Part shown: one piece after another, positions 24,486 to 39,231 of the stretch | How positions within the stretch are numbered: position 1 is the stretch's first letter | Layout of the letters: each line of letters opens with the position of its first letter | Assembly (NCBI RefSeq): GCF_001411495.1 | Contig: NZ_CP012981.1 | Span: forward strand, 2,604,001-2,668,000 | DNA: 64,000 nucleotides | Origin: Burkholderia cepacia ATCC 25416 | Lineage (GTDB): Bacteria; Pseudomonadota; Gammaproteobacteria; Burkholderiales; Burkholderiaceae | Reading direction: 5' to 3' | The notes under the pieces: generated by a model | Seen by the model: only the letters and a program-made list of their open reading frames with translations | Database searches by the model: none | What the model was told of the DNA's origin: nothing | Position numbers and translations under genes: made by a program

Positions 24486-25453
24486 GTCATTGCCGTTCGT
24501 TCCACCGGACGCTGACGCGCGATACGTGGCTGTATACGGAGATGATCACGACGGGCGCGCTGTTGTTCGGCGATGCCCAGCGGCATCTTGCGTTCACGCC
24601 GAACGAATCGCCGGTCGCGCTGCAGTTGGGCGGCAGCGAGCGCGACGATCTGGCGCGCGCGGCGAAGCTCGGCGAGCAGTGGGGCTACGACGAAATCAAC
24701 CTGAATTGCGGATGTCCGTCCGAGCGTGTGCAGCGCGGCGCGTTCGGCGCGTGCCTGATGAACGAGCCGCAACTCGTCGCGGACTGCGTGAAGGCGATGC
24801 GCGATGCGGTGTCGGTGCCGGTTACGGTCAAGCACCGGATCGGTGTCGACGCGGTCGAGGACTACGCATTCGTGCGCGACTTCGTCGGCACGGTGGCCGA
24901 GGCTGGCTGCGAAACGTTCGTCGTGCATGCACGCAATGCGATCCTGAAAGGGTTGTCGCCGAAAGAGAACCGCGAGATCCCGCCGCTCAAGTACGACTAT
25001 GCGTATCGGTTGAAGCGCGATTTTCCTTCGCTCGAGATCGTCATCAACGGCGGCATCACGACGCTCGACGAGGTTGCGCAGCATCTCGAGCATGTCGACG
25101 GCGTGATGCTCGGCCGCGAGGCGTATCACAACCCGTACGTGCTCGCGGAGGTCGATGCACGCTTCTATGGATCGACGGCAGCGACGCCGACGCGCGAAGA
25201 GGCCGAGGCGAAGCTGATCGAATACTGCGCGGCCGAACTGAAGCGCGGCACCTACCTCGGCGCGATCGTGCGGCATGCGCTCGGACTGTATCGCGGGATG
25301 CCCGGTGCACGTGGCTGGCGTCGTGTGCTGTCGGACAACAAGAAGCTTGCACGCGGCGATCTGGCCGTGTTCGACGAGGCGCGCGCGCATCTGAACGAGG
25401 CCGAAGAAGTTTTTGAAAAAAAAGCTTTGCAAGATTCAAAAGTGTTCGTATAA
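24413..25453 (+). CDS. dusA: tRNA-dihydrouridine(20/20a) synthase DusA
   Basis: This 346-residue host enzyme reduces U20/U20a in tRNA D-loops using FMN and NADPH. Hallmarks are VSVAPMLDWTDRHCR near the start, the active-site block INLNCGCPSERVQRGAFGACLM (catalytic Cys in GCPS, split here across INLNCGCPS and ERVQRGAFGACLM), VKHRIGVD and INGGITTLDE. The first dozen residues (MFQENSIKSTG) do not look like DusA and lie in the phage-derived segment, so the prophage has probably supplied a new start. Confidence 0.95.
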   Translation: MFQENSIKSTGRRVSVAPMLDWTDRHCRSFHRTLTRDTWLYTEMITTGALLFGDAQRHLAFTPNESPVALQLGGSERDDLARAAKLGEQWGYDEINLNCGCPSERVQRGAFGACLMNEPQLVADCVKAMRDAVSVPVTVKHRIGVDAVEDYAFVRDFVGTVAEAGCETFVVHARNAILKGLSPKENREIPPLKYDYAYRLKRDFPSLEIVINGGITTLDEVAQHLEHVDGVMLGREAYHNPYVLAEVDARFYGSTAATPTREEAEAKLIEYCAAELKRGTYLGAIVRHALGLYRGMPGARGWRRVLSDNKKLARGDLAVFDEARAHLNEAEEVFEKKALQDSKVFV

Positions 25454-25509: not shown

Positions 25510-25586
25510 GGTGGCTGTAGCTCAGTTGGTAGAGTCCAGGATTGTGATTCCTGTCGTCGTGGGTTCGAGTCCCATCAGCCACCCCA
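25510..25586 (+). tRNA. tRNA-His (GTG anticodon)
   Basis: Cloverleaf parts are visible: extra G-1 at 25510, acceptor GTGGCTG/CAGCCAC, D-loop AGCTCAGTTGGTAGAG, anticodon stem CAGGA with loop TTGTGAT (anticodon GTG), T-arm GTGGGTTCGAGTCCCAT, discriminator C and encoded CCA (25584-25586). The G-1:C73 pair is specific for tRNA-His. Its 3' end is the probable integration site of prophage 2. Confidence 0.97.
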
Positions 25587-25673: not shown

Positions 25674-26699
25674 TTACATGCCTCTTCGCTTTACGATTTT
25701 CGTTCGATCGTAGACGCGCGCCGTCGTCGCCGGATTCGCATGCAAGTCCGGCAATGCGCCGCGTTCCGCCTTATGCCGCGTCACGTAATACGCGCGCAGG
25801 TCGTGGAACGTAAAGCGCCTCCCGATCTTCTTCAGCTCCAGGGCCTTGCTCATCAGCTTCGACCATTCGGTCTTGAAGCCGGCCGGCGTGTAGTGCGTCG
25901 CGTATCGATTCGAGAACACGTATAGGCAGTCGTCCTTGCGAGCAGCGCGCAGGCGCGCGATCAGTTCGGTCAGAGCGGGCGTGATCTCGATATGCTCGAT
26001 CACCTCGCCGCGTTTCTTGCCGCGCTGCTTCGCGCGCTTGACGCGGATCTCGCCGGCGGCTTCGTCGATCTGAGGCCACGCGAGATCGAGAAACTCGACC
26101 TTCCGGTTGCCCGCCAGCGCCGCATATTCGGCGGCCATGCCGATGACCGCCTTTTGTCCGCCGAGCGACGCTACCCAGGCGGCGAACGACTGGAAGTCTT
26201 CCGGTTCGGGTGCTTCGGTGCGCGGCTGCTCCTCGTTCCGACGAACCTCGCGACAGGGGTTATGCTTGGCCTCGCCGCGGTCGATCGCCAGACCGATCAG
26301 GTTCGAAAGCAGCGCAACCTCGCGGTTGGCGCGCACCGGCGCGGCTGCGCGCTCGATGCGCAGATAGCGCGAGACGTGTGTCGCGTCGATGTCGGCGGCG
26401 CGCATGTCGCCGAACGTTTCCAGCAGCGGCCCGCTGCATTGCTTGTAGTCGTTGCGCGTGTACTGCGAGTAGCGCTGCCATCCGGGCGTCTCCTGGAACT
26501 GCTCCCATAGCCGCGCGATCGTGCCAACGTCGTCGCCGGCGCCGAGCAGGTCGAGCACCTTGCGTATTGCGACGAGCCGGTCCTGGCCGAGGTTGATCGG
26601 CTTCTTCCCGACCGGGTGATAGCGGTACGTGAAGCCTTCCTTCCGTTTCCGCGCCTCCATGCGCGGCAGGAGGCCATCACGTTCCCGGTGCTTCTTCAT
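25674..26699 (-). CDS. int: Prophage 2 integrase, tyrosine recombinase (tRNA-His site)
   Basis: This 341-residue protein starts at ATG 26699 (MKKHRERDG), overlapping the excisionase-like gene by ATGA. The N-terminal arm region has KRKEGFTYRYHPVGKKPINLG. Catalytic residues appear as Arg199 (GNRKVEF), His299 and Arg302 (HDLRAYY) and Tyr330 (ARVYDRT). The usual GH motif is replaced by a HANPAT segment (His320). It lies about 90 bases from the tRNA-His 3' end, as expected for a tRNA-integrating phage. Confidence 0.92.
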   Translation of the reverse strand: MKKHRERDGLLPRMEARKRKEGFTYRYHPVGKKPINLGQDRLVAIRKVLDLLGAGDDVGTIARLWEQFQETPGWQRYSQYTRNDYKQCSGPLLETFGDMRAADIDATHVSRYLRIERAAAPVRANREVALLSNLIGLAIDRGEAKHNPCREVRRNEEQPRTEAPEPEDFQSFAAWVASLGGQKAVIGMAAEYAALAGNRKVEFLDLAWPQIDEAAGEIRVKRAKQRGKKRGEVIEHIEITPALTELIARLRAARKDDCLYVFSNRYATHYTPAGFKTEWSKLMSKALELKKIGRRFTFHDLRAYYVTRHKAERGALPDLHANPATTARVYDRTKIVKRRGM

Positions 26700-26902
26700 G
26701 CTGCGACTCTCCATTTCGGCTGCGCGCGCGGCGCGGCTTCGGCGCGCGGGCGGTTGACCTGCTCCCACGTCAGCATGGGATGCCCGTCAGCCTTTCGCGG
26801 CGCGTCGATGCCGAGTGCTTTCTTGATCCACCGGGCCTGCGCCGCACCCTGTTTCAGGCCGCCCGTCAGCTCGACGAGCTCGTCATTGGTCACGATTGGC
26901 AT
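26696..26902 (-). CDS. Excisionase-like protein, DUF4224 type
   Basis: This 68-residue protein begins VTNDELVELTGGLKQGAAQ and continues with RWIKKALGIDAP and HPMLTWEQVNRP, the pattern of DUF4224. These small proteins lie directly upstream of phage integrases and probably act as recombination directionality factors through a compact winged-helix domain. The four-base overlap with int supports co-expression. Confidence 0.75.
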   Translation of the reverse strand: MPIVTNDELVELTGGLKQGAAQARWIKKALGIDAPRKADGHPMLTWEQVNRPRAEAAPRAQPKWRVAA

Positions 26903-29075: not shown

Positions 29076-30221
29076 TCAGAAGGTTCTCGTGAGATCGCGA
29101 TCGACGGCTTTACCCAGCGAACGCAGAAGGTTCGCGAGGCTCGCGCGATCGTGGTGGCTGGCGGTTGCCTGCCGCAGCAGGCCGAAATACGAATTCGCGA
29201 CCGGCATCAGATCGCCGGCTGGTGTCTCGGCGACGCGCCGCAGGGCTTCGTTGCGCGTGCGTTTCCGCGTCTCGCGACGCCATGGCTTGATGACCTGACC
29301 GACGAAGTCGATGCCGCGGTCAATCGGCTGGAGGATGGTTTTGCGCGGGTTGATCCGCGCGCCGAGCTGCGTGGGCAGGAACGCGGTGACGTCGGCGAGG
29401 ATCGCGTTCAAGCGCGCCGGCGACTCGTGCAGGAACACGAAATCGTCGACGTACCGGATGTAGTGCCGCGCGCGGAGCACATGCTTCGCGCGCTGATCGA
29501 GAACGTCGAGGTACACGTTCGCGAAGAACTGGCTCGACAGGTTGCCGATCGGAAGGCCAAGGTGCTCGGCTTGTTCCATCAGGCGCTTGTGCGGCGGCAC
29601 GAGCTCGATCATTGCCGGGTCGCCGTGGTGTTCGAAGTCGGCCCGTGGATCGTGCATCAGCACGCGCTCGGTCAGCGCACGCCAAAACGGCTCGGAGATC
29701 TTCGCGAAGAGCAGGTCGAGCAGGATGCGCTTGTCGATGCTGACGAAGAAGTTCGCGAGATCGCACTTCAGGTAGAACGCGCGACGCGACCAGTTCTGCG
29801 TGATCGATCGCACCTTCGCTTCGAGGCGCTGCGCGGCGTATAGCGTGCCGCGGCCCTTGATGCAGGCGCATGAATCGGCGATGAAGGACCGCTCGAAGCT
29901 CGGGCCGATCCGGTTGTAAAGCAGGTGGTGCACGATGCGATCGCGAAATGCGGCCGCCCAGACTTCGCGCGGCTTCGGTCTCGTGATGACGAAGCATTTC
30001 GAGCGGCCGGGTGTGTAACTGCCTTCGGCCAGCTCGTCGTACAGGCGTCGCAGGTTGCGTTCGAGCCGCATTTCGAACGCGAGCGCTGCATTGCTGTTTC
30101 GCTTCGTTCGCCGGCAGTCGAGATACGCTTCGACCAGCTCGGCGAACGAAAATGGCCCTCGATCTGCGGACGGCTCGGGCGCGCAACTCGTTGTTCTGGT
30201 GGTTGTTGTTCTGGTTGCCAT
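29076..30221 (-). CDS. DGR reverse transcriptase
   Basis: This 381-residue RT (from ATG 30221) copies template-repeat RNA with errors at adenines for mutagenic retrohoming. Motifs in order: AAAFRDRIVHHLL, LKCDLANFFVSID (about 151-163), GLPIGNLSSQFFAN (222-235) and YIRYVDDFVFL with catalytic YVDD at 257-260. The IGxxxSQ form in motif 4 is diagnostic of DGR enzymes and differs from retrons and group II introns. The only ATG near the conserved N-terminus (PFSFAELVEAYLDCRR) lies inside the template repeat without a clear Shine-Dalgarno, so the true start is uncertain. Confidence 0.95.
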   Translation of the reverse strand: MATRTTTTRTTSCAPEPSADRGPFSFAELVEAYLDCRRTKRNSNAALAFEMRLERNLRRLYDELAEGSYTPGRSKCFVITRPKPREVWAAAFRDRIVHHLLYNRIGPSFERSFIADSCACIKGRGTLYAAQRLEAKVRSITQNWSRRAFYLKCDLANFFVSIDKRILLDLLFAKISEPFWRALTERVLMHDPRADFEHHGDPAMIELVPPHKRLMEQAEHLGLPIGNLSSQFFANVYLDVLDQRAKHVLRARHYIRYVDDFVFLHESPARLNAILADVTAFLPTQLGARINPRKTILQPIDRGIDFVGQVIKPWRRETRKRTRNEALRRVAETPAGDLMPVANSYFGLLRQATASHHDRASLANLLRSLGKAVDRDLTRTF

Positions 30222-30251
30222 TGTTGAAGTTCTGGTACCACGCCCAGCCGG
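30162..30251 (-). repeat. DGR template repeat (TR)
   Basis: This 90-bp repeat, read leftward, contains CAGAACTTCAACAATGGCAA and further AAC codons, ending GAGTTGCGCGCCCGAGCC. It is adenine-rich exactly where the three variable repeats differ. It lies between avd and the RT, as in the Bordetella BPP-1 cassette, and overlaps the candidate RT start. Outside adenine positions it is identical to all three variable repeats. Confidence 0.95.
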
Positions 30252-30414
30252 AGGTATCGTGCGATCTACGTCGCCCGACCGATTTCTCAGTCGGAAAACT
30301 GCGCTGGACCTTTCCGCACGCCGGCGGCCGGTTTCCTTATTGCGCATGGCGGTGGCTTTGTGAGCCAGCGGCACGACCAGATTGATATATCGCTCAGCCG
30401 CGAAGGCCTTAACC
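30252..30414 (-). ncRNA. Spacer between avd and TR; probable 5' part of the DGR template RNA
   Basis: These 163 bases hold no convincing gene. Read leftward they include a short hairpin (GACTGAGAAATCGGTC region, about 30277-30294). In known DGRs the RNA flanking TR is needed for priming and RT-Avd binding, so this stretch is likely part of the functional RNA. Its boundaries cannot be set from sequence alone. Confidence 0.4.
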
Positions 30415-30771
30415 TTAGCGGAGCGGGCGACGGTTTGCGGCGTTCTTCCAGCCGGTGGCCTGCTTCCCGATGCTCGTCGTCTTCTCGACGGCAGCTGCGT
30501 AGCCGTCACGTGCGATCAGGCGCTTGTCCATGCTGAGCCGAAGCAGCAGCTCGATCACCTGCAGGCGCTCGAGCAATTCGACGAGGTGGGGTGCCTTGTC
30601 GGCCGCGACGTTCGCGCGAAACACCAACACCATGATCTCGATGCACTCCGCGCTGATCTTCTCGCCGATGCTGCGCTTGAAGTCGCGGGGCATGTTCTTG
30701 ACCAGGTTGGTAACGTCATCGAGCAACCCGTAGGCCGTTCGATATATCGGGAGTTGGTTGTGCAGGGCCAC
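30415..30771 (-). CDS. avd: Avd, DGR accessory variability determinant
   Basis: This 118-residue protein starts at GTG 30771. The all-helical sequence (PIYRTAYGLLDDVTNLVKNM, FKRSIGEKISAECIEIMVLV, HLVELLERLQVIELLLRLSM) matches the four-helix-bundle Avd family. It forms a basic pentameric barrel that binds the RT and template RNA. The order target - avd - TR - RT is that of BPP-1. It begins 14 bases after the first target gene. The C-terminal TGWKNAANRRPLR is basic. Confidence 0.92.
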   Translation of the reverse strand: MALHNQLPIYRTAYGLLDDVTNLVKNMPRDFKRSIGEKISAECIEIMVLVFRANVAADKAPHLVELLERLQVIELLLRLSMDKRLIARDGYAAAVEKTTSIGKQATGWKNAANRRPLR

Positions 30772-30785
30772 GGTGGGTTAAATGA

Positions 30786-31250
30786 TCAAAAAACTGAAGG
30801 GATAAATCTGCGGACGGCTCGGGCGCGCAACTCGTCGTACTGGCGGCTGCCGTACTGGTGGCCATCGCCGAAGTACTGGTACCACGCCCAGCCGGAATTC
30901 GATTCATGGCGCTCACCGGACCAGTAATAGGCCGGCTCGAATTCACCCTTCAGGTTGGCGAATAGGAGAGATTGCTCCCGCCGCGTCGGCAGTTCGCCGC
31001 CACGTTCGGCGGCCCACGCCTTCGCCGCCTCCCAGTCCAGATCTTCGGCCCCCCCCGGCAGGAGAATCAGGTAGTGGCTCAACGAGCCATCTTCGAGAAG
31101 GATCGGCCCGGCGATGCGCTCGCCGGCCGCGAGCGGGATCGTGACGGCGTCGACGTGATACTCGGTCGCGCGCGGCTGCTTCTTGAACTCGTCGATCATC
31201 GCGCCGATGCGCGCGTGATCTGCTTCGATCTGTTCGAGCGTGATCGTCAT
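30786..31250 (-). CDS. DGR target protein 1, DUF1566/C-type-lectin-like
   Basis: This 154-residue protein has a helical N-terminus (EQIEADHARIGAMIDEFKKQ) that the other two targets lack. It continues with LILLPGGAEDLDWEAAKAWA, GGELPTRREQSLLFANL and YYWSGERHESNSGWAWYQYF, and the variable region ends ELRARAVRRF. The WA..GG.LPTR.E and YWS..GWAW patterns match DUF1566-type domains, a fold used to display DGR diversity. It has no signal peptide or membrane segment. ATCGGAGCTTGCA provides the Shine-Dalgarno. VR1 lies at its 3' end. Confidence 0.92.
   Translation of the reverse strand: MTITLEQIEADHARIGAMIDEFKKQPRATEYHVDAVTIPLAAGERIAGPILLEDGSLSHYLILLPGGAEDLDWEAAKAWAAERGGELPTRREQSLLFANLKGEFEPAYYWSGERHESNSGWAWYQYFGDGHQYGSRQYDELRARAVRRFIPSVF
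30806..30895 (-). repeat. DGR variable repeat 1
   Basis: The 90 bp align without gaps to TR, with 12 substitutions, every one at a TR adenine. They change codons such as AAC to TAC, GGC, CAC, AGC and GAC within the C-terminal binding-site region of target 1. Confidence 0.95.
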
Positions 31251-31280
31251 TGCAAGCTCCGATTGTGAATGGATGAAGGG

Positions 31281-31643
31281 TTAAATCGACAATCTGCGGA
31301 CGGCCCGGGCGCGCAACTCGTTGCCCTGGTGGTAGCCGTCCTGGTAGCCACCGTTGAAGTGCTGGCACCACGCCCAGCCGGCGAAATCCGGGTCATCGTC
31401 CGGCGTGTTCGACCAGTACGCAGCCTTCTCGAACAGGTCGCGGTGCTGCTCGTATGCGATCACGAGCTCGGCGCGCGTCGGCAGGTCTCCACCGCGGCTC
31501 TTGGCCCAGTCCATCTGTTCCTGCCACGTCCCGCGATCGTTCTCGCCGGGCAGCAGGATCGTGTGCGTGACGTCGCCATTCCTGTCGACGAAGCCGCCGA
31601 GGTAGACCTCGCCGTCGGCGAGCGTGGGAAGCTGGATCTGCAT
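31281..31643 (-). CDS. DGR target protein 2, DUF1566/C-type-lectin-like
   Basis: This 120-residue protein starts at ATG 31643 (CCGGAGAAACC upstream); a longer in-frame extension crosses a terminator-like hairpin and is unlikely. The sequence LADGEVYLGGFVDRNGDV, TILLPGENDRGTWQEQMDWA, GGDLPTRAELVIAYEQH and AAYWSNTPDDDPDFAGWAWC is DUF1566-like and ends NELRARAVRRLSI. It is a close paralogue of target 3. It has no secretion signal, and its partner or ligand is unknown. It lies 30 bases upstream of target 1. Confidence 0.92.
   Translation of the reverse strand: MQIQLPTLADGEVYLGGFVDRNGDVTHTILLPGENDRGTWQEQMDWAKSRGGDLPTRAELVIAYEQHRDLFEKAAYWSNTPDDDPDFAGWAWCQHFNGGYQDGYHQGNELRARAVRRLSI
31292..31381 (-). 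repeat. DGR variable repeat 2
   Basis: The 90 bp align without gaps to TR, with 12 substitutions, all at TR adenines. One (CGA to CGG) lies in the otherwise constant GC-rich 3' part. Confidence 0.95.
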
Positions 31644-31652
31644 GGTTTCTCC

Positions 31653-31684
31653 GGAAAAGAGAAGGGCGCCGATTGGCGCCCTTC
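31653..31684 (-). terminator. Leftward hairpin-T element upstream of DGR target 2
   Basis: GAAGGGCGCC-GATT-GGCGCCCTTC (31661-31684) is a perfect inverted repeat. Read leftward it is followed by TCTTTTCC and then the target 2 Shine-Dalgarno. It would terminate or attenuate early-operon transcripts before the DGR. Confidence 0.7.
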
Positions 31685-31732
31685 GAATGCCGCGCGGACC
31701 GAGGTATGCCGCGCGGGATAGGCTCTGTTGAA

Positions 31733-32356
31733 TCAGCGGGGCATCCACTGCGTGCCGCGCACGATCCGGCCGACTGGTTCGAGCACGAGCACCTCGGATT
31801 CCTTCTCGCTGCGCACGAGTGCGCTGCCGCGACGCTGGGCTTTCTCCAGCGATTCGTGGCGTTGCGGCTTGCAGTTGCGGCCGACCGTGACGAACAGCGG
31901 CGCGCGTGTGCCGACCGGGCCGAGCGTCAGCTCGTCGATGCGGGCCTCGAGAGCCGCGGCGTTCGCTCGCCAGGTGTCGGCTTTCTGCTGCGCGGCGTCG
32001 CGCTCGGCCGCGAGGCGTTCGACGTCGGCGCGCAGGTCCGCGATGACCCGTGCAACGTCGATGACGCCTGCGTTCGGGTCCAGCGACTTATCGATCAGGC
32101 CGACCGATGCCAGCGCCGGCGCGGCTGCGGCCGGCGGCGTGTCGCCAGGCGGCGGGGGCGCCTTCACTGCGCGCGCGAGCCAGTACACGTACTCGTTGCC
32201 GCCGCCCGCGCGCTTCTCACGCTCGACCAGCCCATCGCCAAGCATGCGGTTCAACTCCTTCGTCACGTCGAGCTGCGGAAGCCCGGTTCCGGTCGCCACG
32301 GCCTTCGCCGTGGCTTCCGACGTATCAGCGAGATACCGCTCGATGTCCTCTCTCAC
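31733..32356 (-). CDS. Winged-helix plus coiled-coil early phage protein
   Basis: Residues 1-65 of this 207-residue protein look like a winged helix (DIERYLADTSEATAKAVATG, VTKELNRMLGDGLVERE, GNEYVYWL). A Pro/Ala linker, a coiled coil around 105-145 (ADLRADVERLAAERDAAQQK) and a C-terminal beta part follow. It may bind DNA or regulate the early operon. It overlaps the SbcC-like gene by ATGA. The exact family is not recognised. Confidence 0.7.
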   Translation of the reverse strand: MREDIERYLADTSEATAKAVATGTGLPQLDVTKELNRMLGDGLVEREKRAGGGNEYVYWLARAVKAPPPPGDTPPAAAAPALASVGLIDKSLDPNAGVIDVARVIADLRADVERLAAERDAAQQKADTWRANAAALEARIDELTLGPVGTRAPLFVTVGRNCKPQRHESLEKAQRRGSALVRSEKESEVLVLEPVGRIVRGTQWMPR

Positions 32357-34119
32357 GCTGCCTCCCGTACGGCGCTTGGCGCGGTGGCGCTGACCCGTCC
32401 ATCCTCGACCCAGAACGCCTCGATGCCTTCGGGTAGCCCAGTGGGTGGCGTTTTCAGGCTCATGAACACGAGCGCCATGTCGACCTGGTCGGTGTATGCG
32501 AGGTCGTCGAGCCAGTACAGCAGCCGGTCACGCTCCGGCCCGACCAGCACATCGGCGCGATCAAGGACGAGCAGTTTCAGGCCCGAGAAGTGGCTGATCG
32601 CTGCGGCGATGTGCGCGTCGGCGCGCCAGCGTTCCGATTCCGACAGTAAGGCGTACGCACGACCGTTCGCGAGGATCTCCATTTCCGGCGTGATCGTGAC
32701 GTCGGCCCATTCAGACAGCTCGGCGAGCGCGGTCAAGCGCTCATTCATCGGGGTCAGCGCTTCGCGCAGTAGGTCGGCCGGAATTCCGTTCGGCGCCAGC
32801 GCGTCGGCGATTGCTTCCCAGACGGCCACGTCCTGATACAGCGCGAAAGCCTTACCCGTGATCTCGATTGCGGCGGCGGCGCGGCGCTCGGCGTCGCATG
32901 CGGCCGCGATGTCCGTATCGAGCTGCGTGCGGCGTTGCATCAGCGCGCCGAGCTCGCGGCGCGCCGCGTCGATCGCCTCGCCCGATGAGTCGCCAGCGCC
33001 GGCAGTCGCTTCGTTCTCCAGGTCCTTCAGCTGCTTCGCCGCCGCGTCAGCGGCTTCAAGTTCCGCGCGGCGATTGCGGGCGGCGTTCTGCAGCACCGTG
33101 AGGCTGCGCTCGTACTCGGGCAGTTTCGCGATCGCTTCATCATCGCGCGCGCCGGCTGCGGCGGCGGCCGTGAGCGCGCCATGCAGGAAACGCAGCAGCG
33201 CGCCGCATTCCGGGCAGCTGCATTCCGTGCCGGCCGGCACGGCGCCGGCGCGCACGCGCATTGCATCGACCTGCGGCTGGAACTCCGCGAGCTGGTCGTC
33301 GGCCAGCTGAGCCAGCTCGGCGGCTTTCGCGTAGCCGGATGCCTTGTCGCGCAGCGCGGCGATTTTCGAAGCGCGGGCGCGCGCGGCGGCTTCGCCGGCC
33401 TCGGCCGCGCCGATCTGGCGCTGCAGCTCGCCGACGTCGCCGTCGAGCGACGCGCGCTCGCCTTCGAGCTTGCGCAGCGCCGCCGTGTCGAAGTTGACCG
33501 GTGCCGGTCGCCAATCCGCGGCCTTCTGGCTGCCGTACGTTTCACCGGTCGTCGCACGCCATGCCTGCTTCGCGCCGCGCGCGCGATCCGCCGCTTCCTT
33601 CTGCGCGGCCTCGAAACCGGCGCGCAGCATCGGCGTGATCGCCTCGAGCTGGGCGTCGACGGCGAGCCTGATCACGCGGGCCGGAGACGTCAGCTTGTCG
33701 ACCAGCCGCGAGCGAATTTCCTGGGCACCGATCTTCACGCCCATCAATTCATACAGGAACGCGCGGCGCGCAGCGGCGTCGAGCTGCGCGAAGCGCTGCG
33801 CGTCGAGCACCAGCGGAAGGCGCGGATCTTCGGCGAGCTCGCGCTTCAGCTTACCCGACGGCAGCATGACGCTGTTCGCCTGCTCGCCGCACGCGACGAC
33901 GATCTGACCAGCGTCCGAGCCTTCGGTGACGAGCGAGCCGTATTCCTTCTTCAGCGCGACGCGCACGGTGTCCCCGGTGAGCGCCATACGCACGGCTTCC
34001 TGCAGGCTGCTCTTGCCGGCGCCGTTCGGGCCGGCGAAGAGTGCGACGGGTTTCGACAGCCGCAGGTCCGCGGCGTGGATCCCGAGCACTTTCGAGACGT
34101 AGATGTCGGTGATCTTCAT
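32353..34119 (-). CDS. SbcC/RecF-like AAA ATPase with a zinc-hook-like motif
   Basis: This 588-residue protein has Walker A GPNGAGKSS at 30-38, a long coiled coil broken near 298-304 by CSCPECG (like a Rad50/SbcC zinc hook), a signature-like LSESERWRADAHIAAAI and a Walker B-like LKLLVLDRADVL, where DE is replaced by DRAD. It probably works with the neighbouring nuclease and RecT in phage recombination or DNA-end processing. It is far shorter than cellular SbcC, as usual in phages. Confidence 0.87.
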   Translation of the reverse strand: MKITDIYVSKVLGIHAADLRLSKPVALFAGPNGAGKSSLQEAVRMALTGDTVRVALKKEYGSLVTEGSDAGQIVVACGEQANSVMLPSGKLKRELAEDPRLPLVLDAQRFAQLDAAARRAFLYELMGVKIGAQEIRSRLVDKLTSPARVIRLAVDAQLEAITPMLRAGFEAAQKEAADRARGAKQAWRATTGETYGSQKAADWRPAPVNFDTAALRKLEGERASLDGDVGELQRQIGAAEAGEAAARARASKIAALRDKASGYAKAAELAQLADDQLAEFQPQVDAMRVRAGAVPAGTECSCPECGALLRFLHGALTAAAAAGARDDEAIAKLPEYERSLTVLQNAARNRRAELEAADAAAKQLKDLENEATAGAGDSSGEAIDAARRELGALMQRRTQLDTDIAAACDAERRAAAAIEITGKAFALYQDVAVWEAIADALAPNGIPADLLREALTPMNERLTALAELSEWADVTITPEMEILANGRAYALLSESERWRADAHIAAAISHFSGLKLLVLDRADVLVGPERDRLLYWLDDLAYTDQVDMALVFMSLKTPPTGLPEGIEAFWVEDGRVSATAPSAVREAA

Positions 34120-34131
34120 GGGAGGTTCCGG

Positions 34132-35190
34132 TTAGTCGGCGCTGATCGGCCCGCGTGCGCGGCGCGGCGCACCGGCTCGCGGCTGTTGCTGAGCCTGTTC
34201 GGCAGCCGCGGTGATGGCACGCATGCGCGCCGATGCCGCCGCGTTCAGGTCCGCCTTCGCGGCCTCGTCCGGCACACCGGCGATCGCGCTGCGCGCGAGG
34301 TCGAGGTCCTCGGCAGTCGCCGCGGACTCGATGTCCTCGCGAATGCCGCGCACCAGGCCGTCGACGTCGAACTCAAACCCGCCTTGGCTCTGGCCGGCCT
34401 CGCCGCGAGGCTCGTCCTGGTCGTCGACCCGATCGGCTCGGGTAGCTGCCGGTGGCGCGTCGGCCGCGCGCGAGTCCGTCGCGGGACCGGTCTGCGCCGG
34501 CTCGGCGCCGCGCGGTACTTCCTCCGCAGGTTGCGCGCGGCCGTTGCGCAGCTCTTCGAGCGTACTAGTCACTGCAACCGAGCCGTCGGCTCGCACTTCG
34601 ACGGTATCGATCAGTTCTTCCTGTGACGAAAGTCCCATGCTGATCTCGGGGGCGTAGGCCCGCTGCCAGAACGCGGCCGAGCGATACACGAACATCTGGT
34701 CGGGCATCGTGAGCCACTTACTGCCGCTCTTCTTGTTCCAGCCTTCAGCCTTGACCATCTTCCAGTCGATCCAGGTGCCGTTCAGGCGCTCGCCAGTCGA
34801 CTTCTCGATCGTCCATGCCCGACAGCCGAAGTCGTCACTGCCTTCGGTGCCGCGCCATTCGTAGCGCAGCGTCTCGAACCGGCCGCATGTGTTCACGCTG
34901 GCGATCAGGAACTTGCTCGACCAGCCGGGGTTGCCGTGGACGATGTATAGGTTCTGCATGACCATCAGCTCGTCGGCGCCGAGGCGGCGCGCGAGATTCA
35001 GCGCGATCATGCAGTTCGCGACGTTGTTCTGGTAGTGAGCGGGGACCAGCGACGAAGACGCGAAAGCCTTGGCGACGCGCTGCAACAGCTCGAAGCCTTG
35101 AAGATCGAAGAAGCCCGCGCGAACAGGCGGCAGCGATGCCTCGCGCGGCGCGGGATTGCGGATAGCTTCCAGGGTGGTAGGCGTGGACAT
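34132..35190 (-). CDS. RecT-family single-strand annealing recombinase
   Basis: This 352-residue protein starts at ATG 35190. The N-terminal 230 residues (SSLVPAHYQNNVANCMIAL, ARRLGADELMVMQNLYIV, QMFVYRSAAFWQRAYAPEIS) match phage RecT/Bet-type annealases that pair resected strands. The C-terminal third is disordered, acidic and Ala/Pro-rich, ending RRARGPISAD. It lies between the nuclease and the ATPase, completing a recombination module. An extension upstream of 35190 overlaps the nuclease gene and is rejected. Confidence 0.85.
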   Translation of the reverse strand: MSTPTTLEAIRNPAPREASLPPVRAGFFDLQGFELLQRVAKAFASSSLVPAHYQNNVANCMIALNLARRLGADELMVMQNLYIVHGNPGWSSKFLIASVNTCGRFETLRYEWRGTEGSDDFGCRAWTIEKSTGERLNGTWIDWKMVKAEGWNKKSGSKWLTMPDQMFVYRSAAFWQRAYAPEISMGLSSQEELIDTVEVRADGSVAVTSTLEELRNGRAQPAEEVPRGAEPAQTGPATDSRAADAPPAATRADRVDDQDEPRGEAGQSQGGFEFDVDGLVRGIREDIESAATAEDLDLARSAIAGVPDEAAKADLNAAASARMRAITAAAEQAQQQPRAGAPRRARGPISAD

Positions 35191-35204
35191 GGAGATCTCG
35201 CGGG

Positions 35205-36014
35205 TTAATCGTGGAACTGGCAGGTGCCGTGGCGCGGGCAGTACTTCTTGTCGCACAGCAGCGATTTCGGGTTAGGGTAGAAGCGGCCGGACCGGAACAT
35301 GTCCGCGGCGAACTGGATCAGCCCCGGCGTTTCCTCGGTGCCGACCATCACGCGCTTCGAGTTCGCGATCGGCGCGGTCGCGACTTCTGGCGTGCCCTTC
35401 GTTTTCAGGCCGATGATCTCGGCGGTGTCGCCGATTTCCTCGCCGGTCGTGTGCTCGTACAGCAGCTCGTATGTGCCGATCTGCGGGCCGTGCCCCTTCG
35501 TGACGGCCGCGCCTTTCTGGACTGCGGACGATCCGCTCTTCAGGTCCGCGATGCCGACGCCGGCCGCCGAGCGGCGCACGCGCGCGCGATCCATCGTGCC
35601 TGTCAGGCGCACGATGACGCCGCCGCCGCAGTCGATTTCGAGCGGCTTCGTTTCCATCTCGACCGCGACGAAGTTGTAGCGCGGCGCGACCTCGAGGCAG
35701 TACTTCGTGGTCAGCGACAGGCCGATGCGTTCCGCGTCGGACATGCTCAGGTCGTCGCGCTCCGGATCGAACTCGTTCTCGGGGTCGCGCAGCTTGTCGA
35801 CGAACGCGCCGGCCGCATCGTCGACGGTCAAGCCCGAGCCATCGAGCCGCGCCTGGTCGAACACGGCCGTGCCAGCGTGAATCGCGGTGCCGAGCGCGGC
35901 ACGCAGGCCGACCACGTTGCGCATATTCAGGAGGTGGATGCCCTCCCAGCGGTATGCGCAGTCGAAGAGTGCGCCCCAGCTGGACGCGCGGACGGTGTAG
36001 ACGGATGGGTTCAT
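35205..36014 (-). CDS. PD-(D/E)XK exonuclease with Cys cluster (Cas4/RecB-like)
   Basis: The nuclease core of this 269-residue protein shows GTMDRARVRR and then GIADLKSGSS with D-x-K near 156-158, followed by GPQIGTYELLYE. Cys19 (LFDCAYRW) and Cys254, Cys259 and Cys265 (LLCDKKYCPRHGTCQF) form the one-plus-three arrangement that binds an Fe-S cluster in Cas4 and AddB-type nucleases. It would supply 3' tails to the RecT protein encoded next. The ATG at 36014 overlaps the upstream stop (TGATG). Confidence 0.85.
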   Translation of the reverse strand: MNPSVYTVRASSWGALFDCAYRWEGIHLLNMRNVVGLRAALGTAIHAGTAVFDQARLDGSGLTVDDAAGAFVDKLRDPENEFDPERDDLSMSDAERIGLSLTTKYCLEVAPRYNFVAVEMETKPLEIDCGGGVIVRLTGTMDRARVRRSAAGVGIADLKSGSSAVQKGAAVTKGHGPQIGTYELLYEHTTGEEIGDTAEIIGLKTKGTPEVATAPIANSKRVMVGTEETPGLIQFAADMFRSGRFYPNPKSLLCDKKYCPRHGTCQFHD

Positions 36015-36178
36015 CAGGTTCTCACGAGGTTGGCGACGGCGCTGGTGCCATCGGCATTGAGGGCGGCGACGGCATACATGCACGCGGCGGCGATCAAGCT
36101 CGCGACGATGTAGCTGACGACTGGACTGCGCGCGTGGATGCGTTCGAGCAGCGCGCCGAGGAAATCGAAGGGAGTCAT
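36014..36178 (-). CDS. Small single-pass membrane protein
   Basis: This 54-residue protein has a cytoplasmic-looking N-terminus (TPFDFLGALLERIHAR) and one hydrophobic helix (VVSYIVASLIAAACMYAVAA). It overlaps its neighbours at both ends, so it is firmly in the leftward early operon. The function is unknown; small early membrane proteins in phages often serve superinfection exclusion. Confidence 0.6.
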   Translation of the reverse strand: MTPFDFLGALLERIHARSPVVSYIVASLIAAACMYAVAALNADGTSAVANLVRT

Positions 36179-36357
36179 CCGAGGCTCCGCAGGTAGGGGC
36201 CGGCGACCAGCGAGCCGTACCAGAGGGCCGCGATCGCGACGCCGTAGGCGGCCATCCATGCGCCGGCCTCGGCAGCGCGGCGCAGGCGCGGCGCGCGCGC
36301 GGCGACGCGCAGTAGCGCGTTGTCGGTCGGCGCACGAGGAAGCGTGAGCGTGCGCAT
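36175..36357 (-). CDS. Small membrane protein
   Basis: This 60-residue protein starts at ATG 36357 (TGATG with the upstream stop; a GTG one codon earlier is possible). A basic N-terminal half (LLRVAARAPRLRRAAEAG) precedes a hydrophobic helix (WMAAYGVAIAALWYGSLVAG). It overlaps the next gene by ATGA. No family is recognised. Confidence 0.6.
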   Translation of the reverse strand: MRTLTLPRAPTDNALLRVAARAPRLRRAAEAGAWMAAYGVAIAALWYGSLVAGPYLRSLG

Positions 36358-36686
36358 CACAGACCCTCTCCGCAGACGCGCACGTGCCGCACGGGGTCAG
36401 CGACCGGGACAGGTGCCGAGTAACCGGCCTTGCCGAGCGCGGCGTCGACGACGGCACGGATGCCGGACGTGAGCACCGTTTTTGAGGCGACGAGTCGCAG
36501 CGCCGTGACGATGTCAGGCGCCGCTGCGATCAGCTGCGCGCGCGCCTCAGATTGTTCGCCCGTGCCGAGCACGATGCAGATTCGTTCGTCTTCGCCGAGC
36601 ACGACGATGCAGTTGCCGTCGTAGTCGAGGTAATCGCCGGGTTCGCACGCTTCCCACGGCCCTTGCGGATGGTTGGTCTGTCCCAT
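36357..36686 (-). CDS. Unknown small early phage protein
   Basis: This 109-residue protein starts at ATG 36686 after CGAGAGACCAC. It opens QTNHPQGPWEACEPGDYLDY, continues NCIVVLGEDERICIVLG and then QSEARAQLIAAAPDIVTALR. The last segment is widespread in small phage early proteins of unknown role. A longer frame upstream of 36686 is a shadow of other genes. Confidence 0.65.
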   Translation of the reverse strand: MGQTNHPQGPWEACEPGDYLDYDGNCIVVLGEDERICIVLGTGEQSEARAQLIAAAPDIVTALRLVASKTVLTSGIRAVVDAALGKAGYSAPVPVADPVRHVRVCGEGL

Positions 36687-36711
36687 GTGGTCTCTCGGTG
36701 TGGTGTGCGGC

Positions 36712-36819
36712 TCAGCCGCGGTGGTGGTCGTCTCGGCCCTTGTCCTTGATCGCGATGGCGATTTCGACGACGAGCCAGAAAGCGAGCAGCGCGAGCGCGC
36801 CGATAACGAAGCGGGCCAT
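36712..36819 (-). CDS. Tiny membrane protein (35 aa)
   Basis: The ORF runs from ATG 36819 to TGA 36714-36712 and encodes 35 residues: a hydrophobic helix (FVIGALALLAFWLVVEIAIA) and a charged tail (KDKGRDDHHRG). It starts one base after the previous stop, consistent with coupled translation. It is supported by position and topology only. Confidence 0.5.
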   Translation of the reverse strand: MARFVIGALALLAFWLVVEIAIAIKDKGRDDHHRG

Positions 36820-36820
36820 G

Positions 36821-37246
36821 TCAGATCCCGCTCAAGAGGCGCAGGCCGGCCGCGCCGTGGTCTGCGCAGTGGCTGACGCCAGCGTTGCCGGGACCGAGTT
36901 CCGCGCCGCATGCTGAGCAGGTCGTCTGCGCGAAGCGCGGTGCGGCGGCGGCGAGGTCGGCGGCGGCGATACGACGCGCGATCTCGGCGGCGCGCGCGGC
37001 GACGAGGATGCCCCAGACCGTGTACACGTCCTCGATGCGGCCGCGTGCCAGCGCAGCGTCGATCACCGCGCAGTCGGTCGTCGAGATCTCGAGCCTGTCG
37101 AATGTGACGCCGTCGGCGATTTCTTCGTTGCGCTCGTCGCGCGCCAGCGCCGCATCGTCGGCCGCCGCTTGTTGTCGATCGGCGCTCGCATCCTTCCGTG
37201 CCGGGAGGGTGCGGACGCTTCCGCCCGTGGAGTTGTTCAGATGCAT
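36821..37246 (-). CDS. Unknown early protein with zinc-ribbon-like C-terminus
   Basis: This 141-residue protein starts at ATG 37246 because GGAGGGTGCG lies just before it; the ATG 12 bases earlier has no such site. The middle is Ala-rich and helical (DAALARGRIEDVYTVWGILV). The end has TTCSACGAELGPGNAGVSHCADHG, split as CSACGAELG and HCADHG, a likely zinc site. It lies between DGR target 3 and the small membrane genes. Confidence 0.6.
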   Translation of the reverse strand: MHLNNSTGGSVRTLPARKDASADRQQAAADDAALARDERNEEIADGVTFDRLEISTTDCAVIDAALARGRIEDVYTVWGILVAARAAEIARRIAAADLAAAAPRFAQTTCSACGAELGPGNAGVSHCADHGAAGLRLLSGI

Positions 37247-37279
37247 CGCACCCTCCATGCAGTTGAAATGGACGAAGGG

Positions 37280-37660
37280 TTAAATCGACAATCTGCGGAC
37301 GGCTCGGGCGCGCAACTCGTCGTCCTGGCGGTAGCCGTCCTGGTAGCCAAGGTCGAAGTACTGGCACCACGCCCAGCCGGCGTAGCCCGGGTCCGTGTCG
37401 GGTTGGTTCGACCAGTAGGCGTCCGGCTCGAACTCGCCGCGATGGTTTTCCAGCAGGAAGAGCATCTCGATGCGCGTCGGCAGGTCGCCGCCGATCGACT
37501 TCGCCCACTCCATCTGCGCCTGCCAGCTGGCGTCGTCGTTGTCGCCCGGAAGGAGCACGACGTGATTCTGTTCGCCGGCCGTGTTGGTGACGATGCCGAC
37601 GTAGATCTCGCCCTCGGCGAGCTGCGGAACGGAAACAGCGGTGGGGGTGGGCGCGTTCAT
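37280..37660 (-). CDS. DGR target protein 3, DUF1566/C-type-lectin-like (remote)
   Basis: This 126-residue protein is a close paralogue of target 2: LAEGEIYVGIVTNTAGEQNH, VVLLPGDNDDASWQAQMEWA, GGDLPTRIEMLFLLENH and DAYWSNQPDTDPGYAGWAWC, ending DELRARAVRRLSI. TCTGGAGTTTCT supplies the Shine-Dalgarno. It is the first gene downstream of the left operators, about 6 kb upstream of the DGR cassette in the same direction. It has no secretion signal. Its variable repeat proves that the DGR reaches this gene too. Confidence 0.92.
   Translation of the reverse strand: MNAPTPTAVSVPQLAEGEIYVGIVTNTAGEQNHVVLLPGDNDDASWQAQMEWAKSIGGDLPTRIEMLFLLENHRGEFEPDAYWSNQPDTDPGYAGWAWCQYFDLGYQDGYRQDDELRARAVRRLSI
37291..37380 (-). 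repeat. DGR variable repeat 3
   Basis: The 90 bp align without gaps to TR, with 13 substitutions, all at TR adenines (for example AAT to CTT and AAC to GAC, TAC or GGC). The sequence 3' of it up to the stop and beyond matches that after VR2 (TGTCGATTTAACCCTTC). Confidence 0.95.
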
Positions 37661-38051: not shown

Positions 38052-38095
38052 CTTTAGCGAAACGCGAAAGTTGTGTCTATAGCGAAACGCGAAAG
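38052..38095. promoter_or_regulatory. Left operators (two sites) and early leftward promoter
   Basis: Two 19-bp sites, CTTTAGCGAAACGCGAAAG (38052-38070) and CTATAGCGAAACGCGAAAG (38077-38095), start 25 bases apart. They match the right-operator sites next to the repressor. Read leftward the region contains GCTATAGAC, a possible -10 box shared with the right promoter. This is the counterpart of lambda OL/pL. Confidence 0.85.
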
Positions 38096-38235: not shown

Positions 38236-38526
38236 ATGAGTCGAGAGGCGAGCGGGATGAAGCTGCGGTGCAGGGCAGGCGATACGGCGAGGGTGGTGCA
38301 CTCGTCGAATGCATCCCTCATCGATAGGATTGTCACGGTCGTGCAAATGCACGAAGACGGCCGGTGGGAATGTGAGCTTATCGGCCGATCCGTGTTGGGA
38401 TGTGCGGATGACGGGGAAGGACTGATTTTGACCCGAGATTGGCTGTTCTCGGATGCGTATCTCGAGCCGCGGCTCGACGCGCGGGACGCAACGTCAGTTC
38501 CCTTTGCCGAACCGCTTCTTTGCTGA
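38236..38526 (+). CDS. SOS-controlled small protein; candidate antirepressor
   Basis: This 96-residue protein is preceded by GAGGTCGGGG and the LexA-box promoter. It has GDTARVVHSSNASLIDRIVT, MHEDGRWECELIGR and GLILTRDWLFSDAYLEP, resembling a small beta-barrel. It is convergent with the repressor gene and overlaps its 3' end by 33 bases. The repressor has no visible autocleavage domain, so this gene is a good candidate for the SOS-made antirepressor that starts induction (like Tum of phage 186). The function is inferred from context only. Confidence 0.65.
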   Translation: MSREASGMKLRCRAGDTARVVHSSNASLIDRIVTVVQMHEDGRWECELIGRSVLGCADDGEGLILTRDWLFSDAYLEPRLDARDATSVPFAEPLLC

Positions 38527-38892
38527 TTGCGCGTCGTCAGCGGACGTAGGCTGCGTCAAAACCCATCCAATGAACGATTCCACCTGCGCCCGCTGAGCTG
38601 GATTCAATTTCCCCCAGCCGGCTGGCACATCAGCAGGGATCGTGGCCGACGTTGTCACAGAATGGTCTGTATCGATCCAACCTACGGCTTTTCCGAGGTT
38701 GTCTTCAATTTTCCGGGCGGTCGCAGCGCGCATGCCCCGCGGCCGGCCGGTCTTTGAATCCTTGGCGCCGTCTCGCAAGTTCGTGAACTGGGAATGAGAC
38801 ATCCCGCAAGCTGCCGCAGCAGCTGACGGTCCTCCGTACTCGGCCTCGATAAGCCGGAGGTTGTCCCGGCGGATTTCGTCGATGTCCTTCAT
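38494..38892 (-). CDS. CI-like repressor, helix-turn-helix, no visible peptidase domain
   Basis: Residues 5-60 of this 132-residue protein form an Xre/CI-type HTH (RRDNLRLIEAEYGGPSAAAA, CGMSHSQFTNLRDGAKDSKT, ARKIEDNLGK). The remaining 70 residues (PAGWGKLNPAQRAQVESFIG) are too few for an S24 LexA-like peptidase, and no Ser/Lys dyad is seen. It lies between the left and right operator groups, diverges from the Cro-like gene and should maintain lysogeny. Confidence 0.85.
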   Translation of the reverse strand: MKDIDEIRRDNLRLIEAEYGGPSAAAAACGMSHSQFTNLRDGAKDSKTGRPRGMRAATARKIEDNLGKAVGWIDTDHSVTTSATIPADVPAGWGKLNPAQRAQVESFIGWVLTQPTSADDAQSAKKRFGKGN

Positions 38893-38902
38893 ATATGGAA
38901 TT

Positions 38903-38970
38903 CAATAGCAAAACGCTAAAGGCGTATATGCGCGAAACGCTATAGACTTTCCTTTCGCGTTTCGCTAAAG
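38903..38970. promoter_or_regulatory. Right operators (three sites) with divergent promoters
   Basis: Three 19-bp sites start at 38903 (CAATAGCAAAACGCTAAAG), 38927 (TATGCGCGAAACGCTATAG) and 38952 (CTTTCGCGTTTCGCTAAAG), spaced 24 and 25 bases. The consensus is the imperfect palindrome CTTTnGCGnnnCGCnAAAG. TATAGAC at 38941-38947 is the likely rightward -10 box inside site 2. The arrangement is that of lambda OR between cI and cro. Confidence 0.88.
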
Positions 38971-38976
38971 TTCGGC

Positions 38977-39231
38977 ATGGACCTGAAAACCTACCTCTCC
39001 GCCGAGCGCGGGCGACTTGTCGCACTCAGCCGGGCGATTGGCGCTCATGCGTCAGACGTCAGTCGCTGGTCGAGCGGCGAGCGCCCCATCCCGATCACGT
39101 TCGGCTTGCCGATCGAGCGGGAGACTCATGGTCTCGTGACGAGGCTCGAAATGTTTCCGAGGCAGGTCATCGAACGTGTCTGGCCCGACCTGATTGAGCA
39201 GGCCAAAAAGCGACCGAAGGAGGCGAAGTGA
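38977..39231 (+). CDS. Cro/YdaS-like regulator
   Basis: This 84-residue protein begins MDLKTYLSAERGRLVALSRA and contains the helix-turn-helix IGAHASDVSRWSSGERPIPI typical of YdaS/Cro-type antirepressors, which often recognise a residue-poor turn. The ATG lies six bases after the third right operator. It is the first rightward gene and overlaps the next by GTGA. It should compete with the repressor for the 19-bp operators. Confidence 0.87.
   Translation: MDLKTYLSAERGRLVALSRAIGAHASDVSRWSSGERPIPITFGLPIERETHGLVTRLEMFPRQVIERVWPDLIEQAKKRPKEAK

Follow-up and report, generated by a model that had tools for sequence, protein, structure and literature searches.

What does the reverse transcriptase (RT) cassette in a prophage of Burkholderia cepacia ATCC 25416 do, and how would it recognise its template and its recipient genes? 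We analysed a stretch of 64,000 nucleotides (the window; contig NZ_CP012981.1, positions 2,604,001 to 2,668,000 of the forward strand), in which positions are counted from the first letter. The cassette, encoded on the minus strand, is a complete diversity-generating retroelement (DGR), with an RT, the accessory protein Avd, one template repeat (TR) and three variable repeats (VRs). Read along that strand, target 3 comes first; about 5.6 kb with other genes separate it from target 2, which is followed by target 1, avd, the RT-15 RNA, TR and RT. The coordinates are as follows.

29076..30221, minus strand: DGR-type RT with its conserved body from 30140 on; start codon either at 30221 within TR or upstream of TR, e.g. 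ATG 30347
30162..30252, minus strand: TR, 91 nt in the alignment with VR1, 90 nt with VR2 or VR3
30250..30432, minus strand: RT-15 RNA (RF03018; Rfam 165.3 bits, E 1.7e-40), a structured leader that adjoins TR on its 5' side and overlaps the 3' end of avd
30415..30771, minus strand: Avd accessory protein, 118 amino acids (PF22296, phrog_3206)
30786..31250, minus strand: target 1, 154 amino acids, predicted N-terminal helix and C-type-lectin (Lcl_C-like) domain
30806..30896, minus strand: VR1, 12 changes, 12/12 at TR adenines
30775..30783, minus strand: the word ATTTAACCC after VR1, beyond the stop codon of target 1
31281..31643, minus strand: target 2, 120 amino acids, predicted C-type-lectin-like
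31292..31381, minus strand: VR2, 12 changes, 12/12 at TR adenines
31278..31286, minus strand: ATTTAACCC after VR2, its TAA being the stop codon of target 2
37280..37660, minus strand: target 3, 126 amino acids, predicted C-type-lectin-like; by position the first gene of a leftward block
37291..37380, minus strand: VR3, 13 changes, 13/13 at TR adenines
37277..37285, minus strand: ATTTAACCC after VR3, its TAA being the stop codon of target 3

The RT matches PF00078 (8.9e-15) and phrog_1423 (4.7e-111), and its best match among solved structures is 8ub7 (E 8.8e-36, table label 'Reverse transcriptase'), which we take to be the DGR enzyme of phage BPP-1. By eye, its translation reads YVDD and IGNLSSQ, presumably marks of a DGR-type RT. 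Avd matches PF22296 (bAvd, 7.9e-13, above the cut-off) and phrog_3206 ('Avd protein of DGR', 1.8e-28); a PDB sequence search with Avd gave no significant match. The VRs sit at the 3' ends of the open reading frames (ORFs) 30786-31250, 31281-31643 and 37280-37660, and four 97-nt copies lie in register (30162-30258, 30806-30902, 31292-31388 and 37291-37387). When TR was aligned with VR1, VR2 and VR3, there were 12, 12 and 13 mismatches, 37/37 at TR adenines and without a single gap; TR holds 27 adenines per 90 nt, and the naive chance of 37/37 is 4.5e-20. Adenine mutagenesis is a property of the BPP-1 element, the target of which has a lectin fold. An earlier note on this DNA had described a complete DGR with RT, Avd, TR and three VRs at gene 3' ends and had counted 12, 12 and 13 gapless, adenine-only substitutions; all the parts were recovered (PF00078, PF22296 and the ORF ends), and our realignment reproduced the 37/37.

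The same note took the element to be undescribed, which is not so, as phage Magia (MT701587; PMC7883833) carries the same element. The two RTs are 91.8% identical, Avd, RT and three target genes stand in the same order with a TR and three VRs, and a 12-kb stretch around the DGR is matched over 82% at 87.6% identity. The Magia paper and record speak of a "potential DGR" and name gp47 and gp57 as targets (PMC7883833), but not gp46, the homologue of the VR1 gene. Magia gene 46 (24745-25209, minus strand; locus L011) nevertheless carries a VR that departs from TR at 11 positions, each of them a TR adenine, and is unmarked as a target in the record. The changes between the VRs of the window and of Magia also lie at adenines (VR1 11/11, VR3 11/11, VR2 12/12), with two more changes for VR2 in the 7 nt preceding the repeat proper.

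Does this pattern reflect adenine mutagenesis with retrohoming? RT relatives were taken from 80 of 132 genome contigs with a match, 80 of 529 such viral contigs, 4 phage records, 6 further genome loci and the two cassettes of this genome. This gave 172 loci, or 154 after near-identical ones were removed, in which TR and VRs were matched by base-blind scoring. Across the 154 loci, 4282 of 4479 mismatches are at TR adenines, and adenine accounts for 9945 of 33390 aligned TR bases. Before duplicates were removed, TR and VR had the same orientation in 391/391 matches, with 2372 changes of adenine to G, 1516 to T and 831 to C. At non-adenine positions where the nearest distinct TR differs (145 loci), the VR agrees with its own TR 1229 times, with the other TR 10 times and with neither twice. 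Flank identity reaches 95% or more in 20 locus pairs; 16 of these pair a sequence with its own duplicate, and the other 4 make 3 distinct pairs, one genome being repeated. VR1 of these 3 pairs shows 10, 19 and 16 changes, 44/45 at adenines. Between L102 and L103, which have identical TRs, the VR changes number 14, 10 and 16 (40 in all), every one at a TR adenine, and elsewhere there are 193 changes in 8253 nt (2.34%). Taken together, these comparisons are strong evidence of past mutagenic retrohoming in the clade. They back the earlier note's reading of its adenine signature, with VRs that track their own TR; neutral VR divergence in relatives, including non-adenine sites, which that note had offered as grounds against itself, was looked for, and VR differences were found almost only at adenines.

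The number of VRs per locus bears on how unusual the cassette is. VR places number 0 in 7 of the 154 loci, 1 in 4, 2 in 90, 3 in 49 and 4 in 4, so that 143/154 have at least two and multiple targets are normal for the clade. Multi-VR DGRs are also in the literature, among them those of Burkholderia thailandensis MSMB43, B. glumae BGR1 and Collimonas (PMC3521204; cited here irrespective of group 3 or RT clade), and 271 of them have been reported (PMC6642488); the note's impression that three targets for one cassette are uncommon was therefore mistaken. Five of the 7 loci without a VR have less than 800 nt upstream of RT. The other two, L085 and L179, fit the general pattern poorly, as they have 10 kb upstream of RT and no VR. 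These two loci are possible orphan or trans-acting DGRs.

The genome itself offers a further comparison. A search with TR across the whole genome returned the four window copies and a second DGR about 48 kb away; the remainder were short and weak (E at least 0.07). This second DGR (C1:2584671-2587265; L009/L010) lies in a different prophage-like region, is 90% identical over 2.6 kb and has two VRs and a TR one base off in 97. A single difference, at repeat position 83 (A/C), separates the two TRs; there the window VRs read A, G and A and those of the other prophage C and C. With adenine mutagenesis taken into account, each of the five VRs of the genome matches the TR in its own cassette. VR1 differs at 14/91 positions between the cassettes, 14/14 at adenines. 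In principle, the two cassettes could serve each other's targets.

These data also bear on whether the cassette is a relic that holds old VR differences and no longer works. Prophages can decay, but the ORFs here are open, the RT retains YVDD and IGNLSSQ, close relatives show fresh adenine-only change, and between the two cassettes TR differs at 1/91 and RT-15 at 4/174 nt while RT differs by 13.4%; a relic is thus very improbable. We consider it highly probable that the window holds the complete DGR of a Magia-like prophage that works by adenine mutagenesis and retrohoming, and this copy is probably still active.

How does the layout compare with the best-studied system? The BPP-1 element (AY029185) likewise has an RT (32.3% identical), an Avd-like gene, a TR upstream of RT and a VR at the end of the target gene. 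In BPP-1, however, 144 nt lie between TR and brt and hold the Rfam RNA Phage_DGR (RF03022, at 2750-2882), whereas in the window RT-15 lies 5' of TR and ends on the first TR bases, with a score well over the gathering cut-off of 82 bits. Phage_DGR was absent at E<=1 from window positions 25-40 kb, and at the gathering threshold from 15 sources. The conserved RNA domain is thus on the opposite side of TR from that of BPP-1: 5' here, 3' there. All 15 sources scanned, the second cassette of this genome included, contain RT-15. The Pseudomonas phages Haboob, phPA-G, Cruim01, SC_8_H2H8_2017 and LPPA56 have RTs 63.7-67.8% identical to that of the window; phPA-G and Cruim01 also have RT-15, with 2 and 3 targets, but their targets are longer (163-205 amino acids). 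When 299 family genomes were searched with strict filters that lose weak matches, RT-15 gave 19 above-cut-off matches in 18/299 genomes, the two of this genome included. An RT match adjoins 19/19 of these sites (one RT match being weak), and 18/19 also have a VR within 3.2 kb; the single below-cut-off match in these genomes has no RT beside it. Locus L185 counts against a strict association, with an RT-15 of 191.8 bits, only a weak RT match adjoining and no VR in 3.2 kb; it is a broken or a different element. In an alignment of 41 RT-15 sequences, 42 pairs are predicted, 22 of them with double compensatory changes. By analogy, these results suggest that RT-15 may perform the job of the BPP-1 3' spacer RNA. 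Our literature search found no link between RT-15 and DGRs, which is weak evidence of absence, as most subscription papers were outside its coverage.

The position of TR raises the question of where the RT begins. TR of BPP-1 is outside brt, separated by the 144-nt gap, whereas TR of the window is inside the RT frame and has no 3' spacer. The frame of ORF 29076-30509 passes through TR, with in-frame starts at GTG 30509, GTG 30374, ATG 30347 and ATG 30221 (inside TR), and the window has no in-frame start between TR and the conserved RT body (from 30140); judged from the sequence, the ORF need not be RT over its full length. In 145 loci, 16-44 nt separate the end of TR from the conserved RT body, and ATG, GTG and TTG are all absent from this interval in 135/145, which indicates that in these loci RT begins in or upstream of TR and that TR is within the RT frame. 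A start inside TR as a rule for the clade was rejected: start options are inside TR only in 29 of the 145 loci, upstream only in 45, both in 61 and also or instead after TR in 10. The window is among the 61 with both options (ATG 30221; ATG 30347 and the two GTG codons). Deposited RT starts differ likewise, as that of Magia is upstream of TR (ATG), that of Cruim01 inside TR and that of phPA-G after TR. Synonymous differences are low where TR lies but ordinary across the RT body, and they are not low in RT codons 10-54; they thus give no sign of a long 3' spacer concealed within the RT gene, although a short one may exist. Overlap between TR and one end of the RT ORF, 5' or 3', is known from DiGReF group 3 (PMC3521204).

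If the template RNA is arranged differently, is the recipient site different as well? In BPP-1, a hairpin-forming stretch no more than 35 bp downstream of VR is required for efficient homing (PMC3240598). As a control, our scan found the BPP-1 hairpin after its VR, with a stem of 8 bp and a GAAA loop. No such hairpin follows the VRs of the window: a GC-rich hairpin of 7-10 bp with a 4-nt loop was not found within 45 nt after any of the three, where the longest stems are 2-3 bp. Among Burkholderia-type loci (RT identity at least 80%), 1/125 targets has a stem of at least 7 bp within 75 nt after VR, compared to 2.2% of random stretches.

What follows the VRs instead is the word ATTTAACCC. It occurs 3 times in the 64 kb, each time directly after a VR, and 3 occurrences were reached in 0/100 shuffles. 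In the related loci, ATTTAACC occurs 74 times in 14,670 nt after VRs, compared to 15 times in 2,549,438 nt elsewhere on the same strand (11 on the other strand), and 6/15 of the occurrences elsewhere follow a VR-like end. The first 30 nt past VRs are 65-71% AT, those past TRs 43%, and the loci as a whole 39.5%. The form ATTTAA[CT] is present within 60 nt downstream of 174/326 VRs, 0/145 TRs and 3/770 random stretches, and after target 1 the word is beyond the stop codon in 50/69 cases. That the word merely reflects AT-rich 3' ends was considered and rejected: the 25 nt past the stop are 54-58% AT in targets but 42% AT in control genes, of which 6/1559 carry ATTTAA[CT], so composition alone does not explain the word. 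By analogy with BPP-1, ATTTAACCC right after VR would help to mark the recipient, in place of the hairpin.

Several observations weigh against this proposal. A stem of at least 7 bp is carried by 28/56 target-1 genes in Pseudomonas-type loci (RT identity below 70%), about 30 nt past VR in the examples printed, which means that the hairpin is missing in Burkholderia-type loci and not everywhere. ATTTAA[CT] within 60 nt is present in only the 174/326 targets given above, and its TAA is the stop codon in 105/105 of the target 2 and target 3 cases that carry the word. In 46 Burkholderia-type loci, the 25 nt past the target-1 stop are only 47% AT, as compared to 42% in control genes. The copies have a common ancestry, and part of the word may be coding or inherited along with target paralogues. 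In locus L084, the 60 nt past the VRs of targets 1 and 2 are identical, which points to a recent target duplication including the 3' flank.

Which proteins are diversified? Target ORFs were assigned for 326/338 VRs across the related loci. Their median length is 154 amino acids (5-95% 117-206, longest 325), and the VR ends a median of 9 nt before the stop. On a crude hydrophobicity scale, 10 of the 326 have a hydrophobic N-terminus and 1 has a transmembrane-like stretch; the three targets of the window are not among the 10, by this crude stand-in for signal-peptide prediction. Structure models of targets 1 and 3 (predicted local distance difference test, pLDDT, 93.7 and 93.6) have C-type-lectin folds, and their best PDB structure match is the C-terminal domain of Legionella Lcl (8q4e). 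PF07603 matches to the targets are below the Pfam cut-off, and a PDB sequence search with target 1 gave no significant match. The three targets of the window are free-standing proteins of 120-154 amino acids with a predicted C-type-lectin fold. In published work, 71% of the sequences in the main target clusters have no known domain outside the VR region (PMC8144416). Among 55 VRs in 20 loci with a window-like TR, 20 adenines vary often and four (39, 54, 63 and 86, with the first base of the 90-nt stretch numbered 0) are invariant.

The surroundings of the cassette provide evidence on when these proteins may be made.

25538..25586, plus strand: attachment site attL, 49 bp of the tRNA-His 3' end, recurring at C1:2674563-2674611, outside the window
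25674..26768, minus strand: prophage integrase
38055..38095, plus strand: TAGCGAAACGCGAAAG twice, putative operator upstream of target 3
38494-38892, minus strand: putative repressor
38952..38967, minus strand: third putative operator copy, between the putative repressor and the cro-like gene
38977-39231, plus strand: cro-like gene

The 49-bp tRNA-His repeats bound a prophage of about 45.0 kb, with the integrase adjoining, in agreement with the Burkholderia-type prophage that the earlier note had suggested. When weak matches are counted too, merged translated matches to Magia (44,942 bp) extend over about 31 of the 45 kb between the attachment repeats, and the last 6 kb, beyond the window, have weak matches only. 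The leftward block headed by target 3 comprises a PD-(D/E)XK nuclease, RecT, an AAA ATPase, targets 2 and 1, the DGR and the integrase, in an order taken from the window and Magia only; RecT, which has no Pfam match, is named after that of Magia. Coupling of retrohoming to the phage RecT and exonuclease was rejected, as the Magia RecT was matched in only 20/154 loci. The window has three copies of the 16-mer, two of them upstream of target 3 and the third next to the putative repressor, an arrangement expected of operators. The putative repressor has no Pfam match, and the opposite gene has a YdaS match just below the cut-off. A promoter and terminator scan gave three promoter-like sites, with an average of 0.9 in shuffles, and one of them (minus strand, 38079-38051) overlaps the putative operator.

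Neighbouring genes were scanned in 124 ORFs of 9 loci (from 203 ORFs listed in 14 loci). Integrase (8), methyltransferases, repressor, RecE-like and replication proteins are among the commonest families, and no tail or head family is among the best 25 of 173 families. In a defence-gene scan of the same 124 ORFs, only methyltransferases appear among the best 25 of 101 models. The targets are encoded between integrase and repressor and, judged by gene position, length and neighbours, appear not to be tail genes, unlike the target of BPP-1, which is a tail protein.

Two further observations concern the surroundings and the relatives. At 31654-31728 on the minus strand of the window, Rfam BjrC68 scores 25.7 bits, short of its cut-off of 39; the match spans a terminator-like hairpin that lies upstream of target 2 and is probably due to chance. 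Two records of 47,902 bp each, OK094664.1 (L012, 'Shewanella phage vB_Sb_QDWS') and OP650936.1 ('Hujiaoplasma phage zrk29-1'), have a cassette about 88% identical to the Burkholderia one, and at least one of these host labels looks doubtful.

What would the diversified proteins do? The integrase-repressor setting, the shared 16-mer and the neighbour families suggest early, cytoplasmic targets. It is a tentative proposal, with a chance somewhat short of even, that they are early, intracellular variable binders of host proteins, for example inhibitors of host defences. Our literature search found no early-gene DGR targets of this kind, which is weak evidence of absence, as it covered subscription papers thinly. 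The authors of Magia propose instead adaptation or a host-range change for the DGR (PMC7883833), which counts against the counter-defence role. The targets could be receptor-binding or virion-associated proteins with which the element alters phage host range, as in BPP-1. Host switching is reported for the Bordetella phage element (PMC8144416), host-range change is among the roles suggested for Magia (PMC7883833), and the predicted fold is the usual C-type lectin of DGR targets. However, at 120-154 amino acids the targets are little beyond the size of a lectin domain and lie in the integrase-repressor region, the neighbour families include none of tail or head among those named above, and, beyond the three here, the genome search with TR detected VRs in the second DGR alone; a virion role is thus unlikely. 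Alternatively, the lysogen may produce the targets and be protected by them from other phages, which they would neutralise or exclude as proteins of variable sequence. Bacteria are reported to have putative conflict or immune proteins diversified by DGRs (PMC10907252, PMC10053308), but the presence of the 16-mer both next to the putative repressor and ahead of target 3 suggests that the block is shut in the lysogen, and the crude screen showed no evident export signal, so that we regard protection of the lysogen as distinctly unlikely.

With intracellular binders as the proposed products, the element would work as follows. The template RNA is predicted to start with the RT-15 structure; RT, aided by Avd, would copy the TR portion of this RNA into cDNA and place random bases opposite template adenines. 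The cDNA would then be pasted over VR1, VR2 or VR3, with ATTTAACCC directly after VR helping to identify the recipient, and the diversified lectin-fold targets, made early, would bind host factors inside the cell. This DGR itself (in Magia), multi-target DGRs and a TR that overlaps the RT ORF are already known. As far as our searches of the literature show, three features are new: an RT-15 leader 5' of TR and no 3' spacer, a possible sequence mark where the hairpin is absent, and targets resembling early genes. RT-15, the ATTTAACCC word and the missing hairpin do not appear in the accessible published description and record notes of Magia. The earlier note mentions none of these three, nor the early-gene setting or the second DGR.

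An Rfam family known by a number, RT-15, is now tied to DGR template RNAs. The best-studied layout of DGR RNA is not the sole one, and the difference provides a testable contrast for how an RT picks, primes and pastes its template. The clade of 154 loci, 143 of them with at least two VRs, diversifies phage proteins unlike tail fibres in appearance; a published survey describes the viral targets of its clades 1, 4 and 6 as mostly tail proteins (PMC8144416). It is possible, although we hold it doubtful, that all this amounts to a second DGR architecture, with an RT-15 guide 5' of the template, the AT-rich ATTTAACCC tag in place of the hairpin, and early intracellular lectin-fold binders that disarm changing host defences; if true, it would be a phage-made counterpart of an antibody repertoire.

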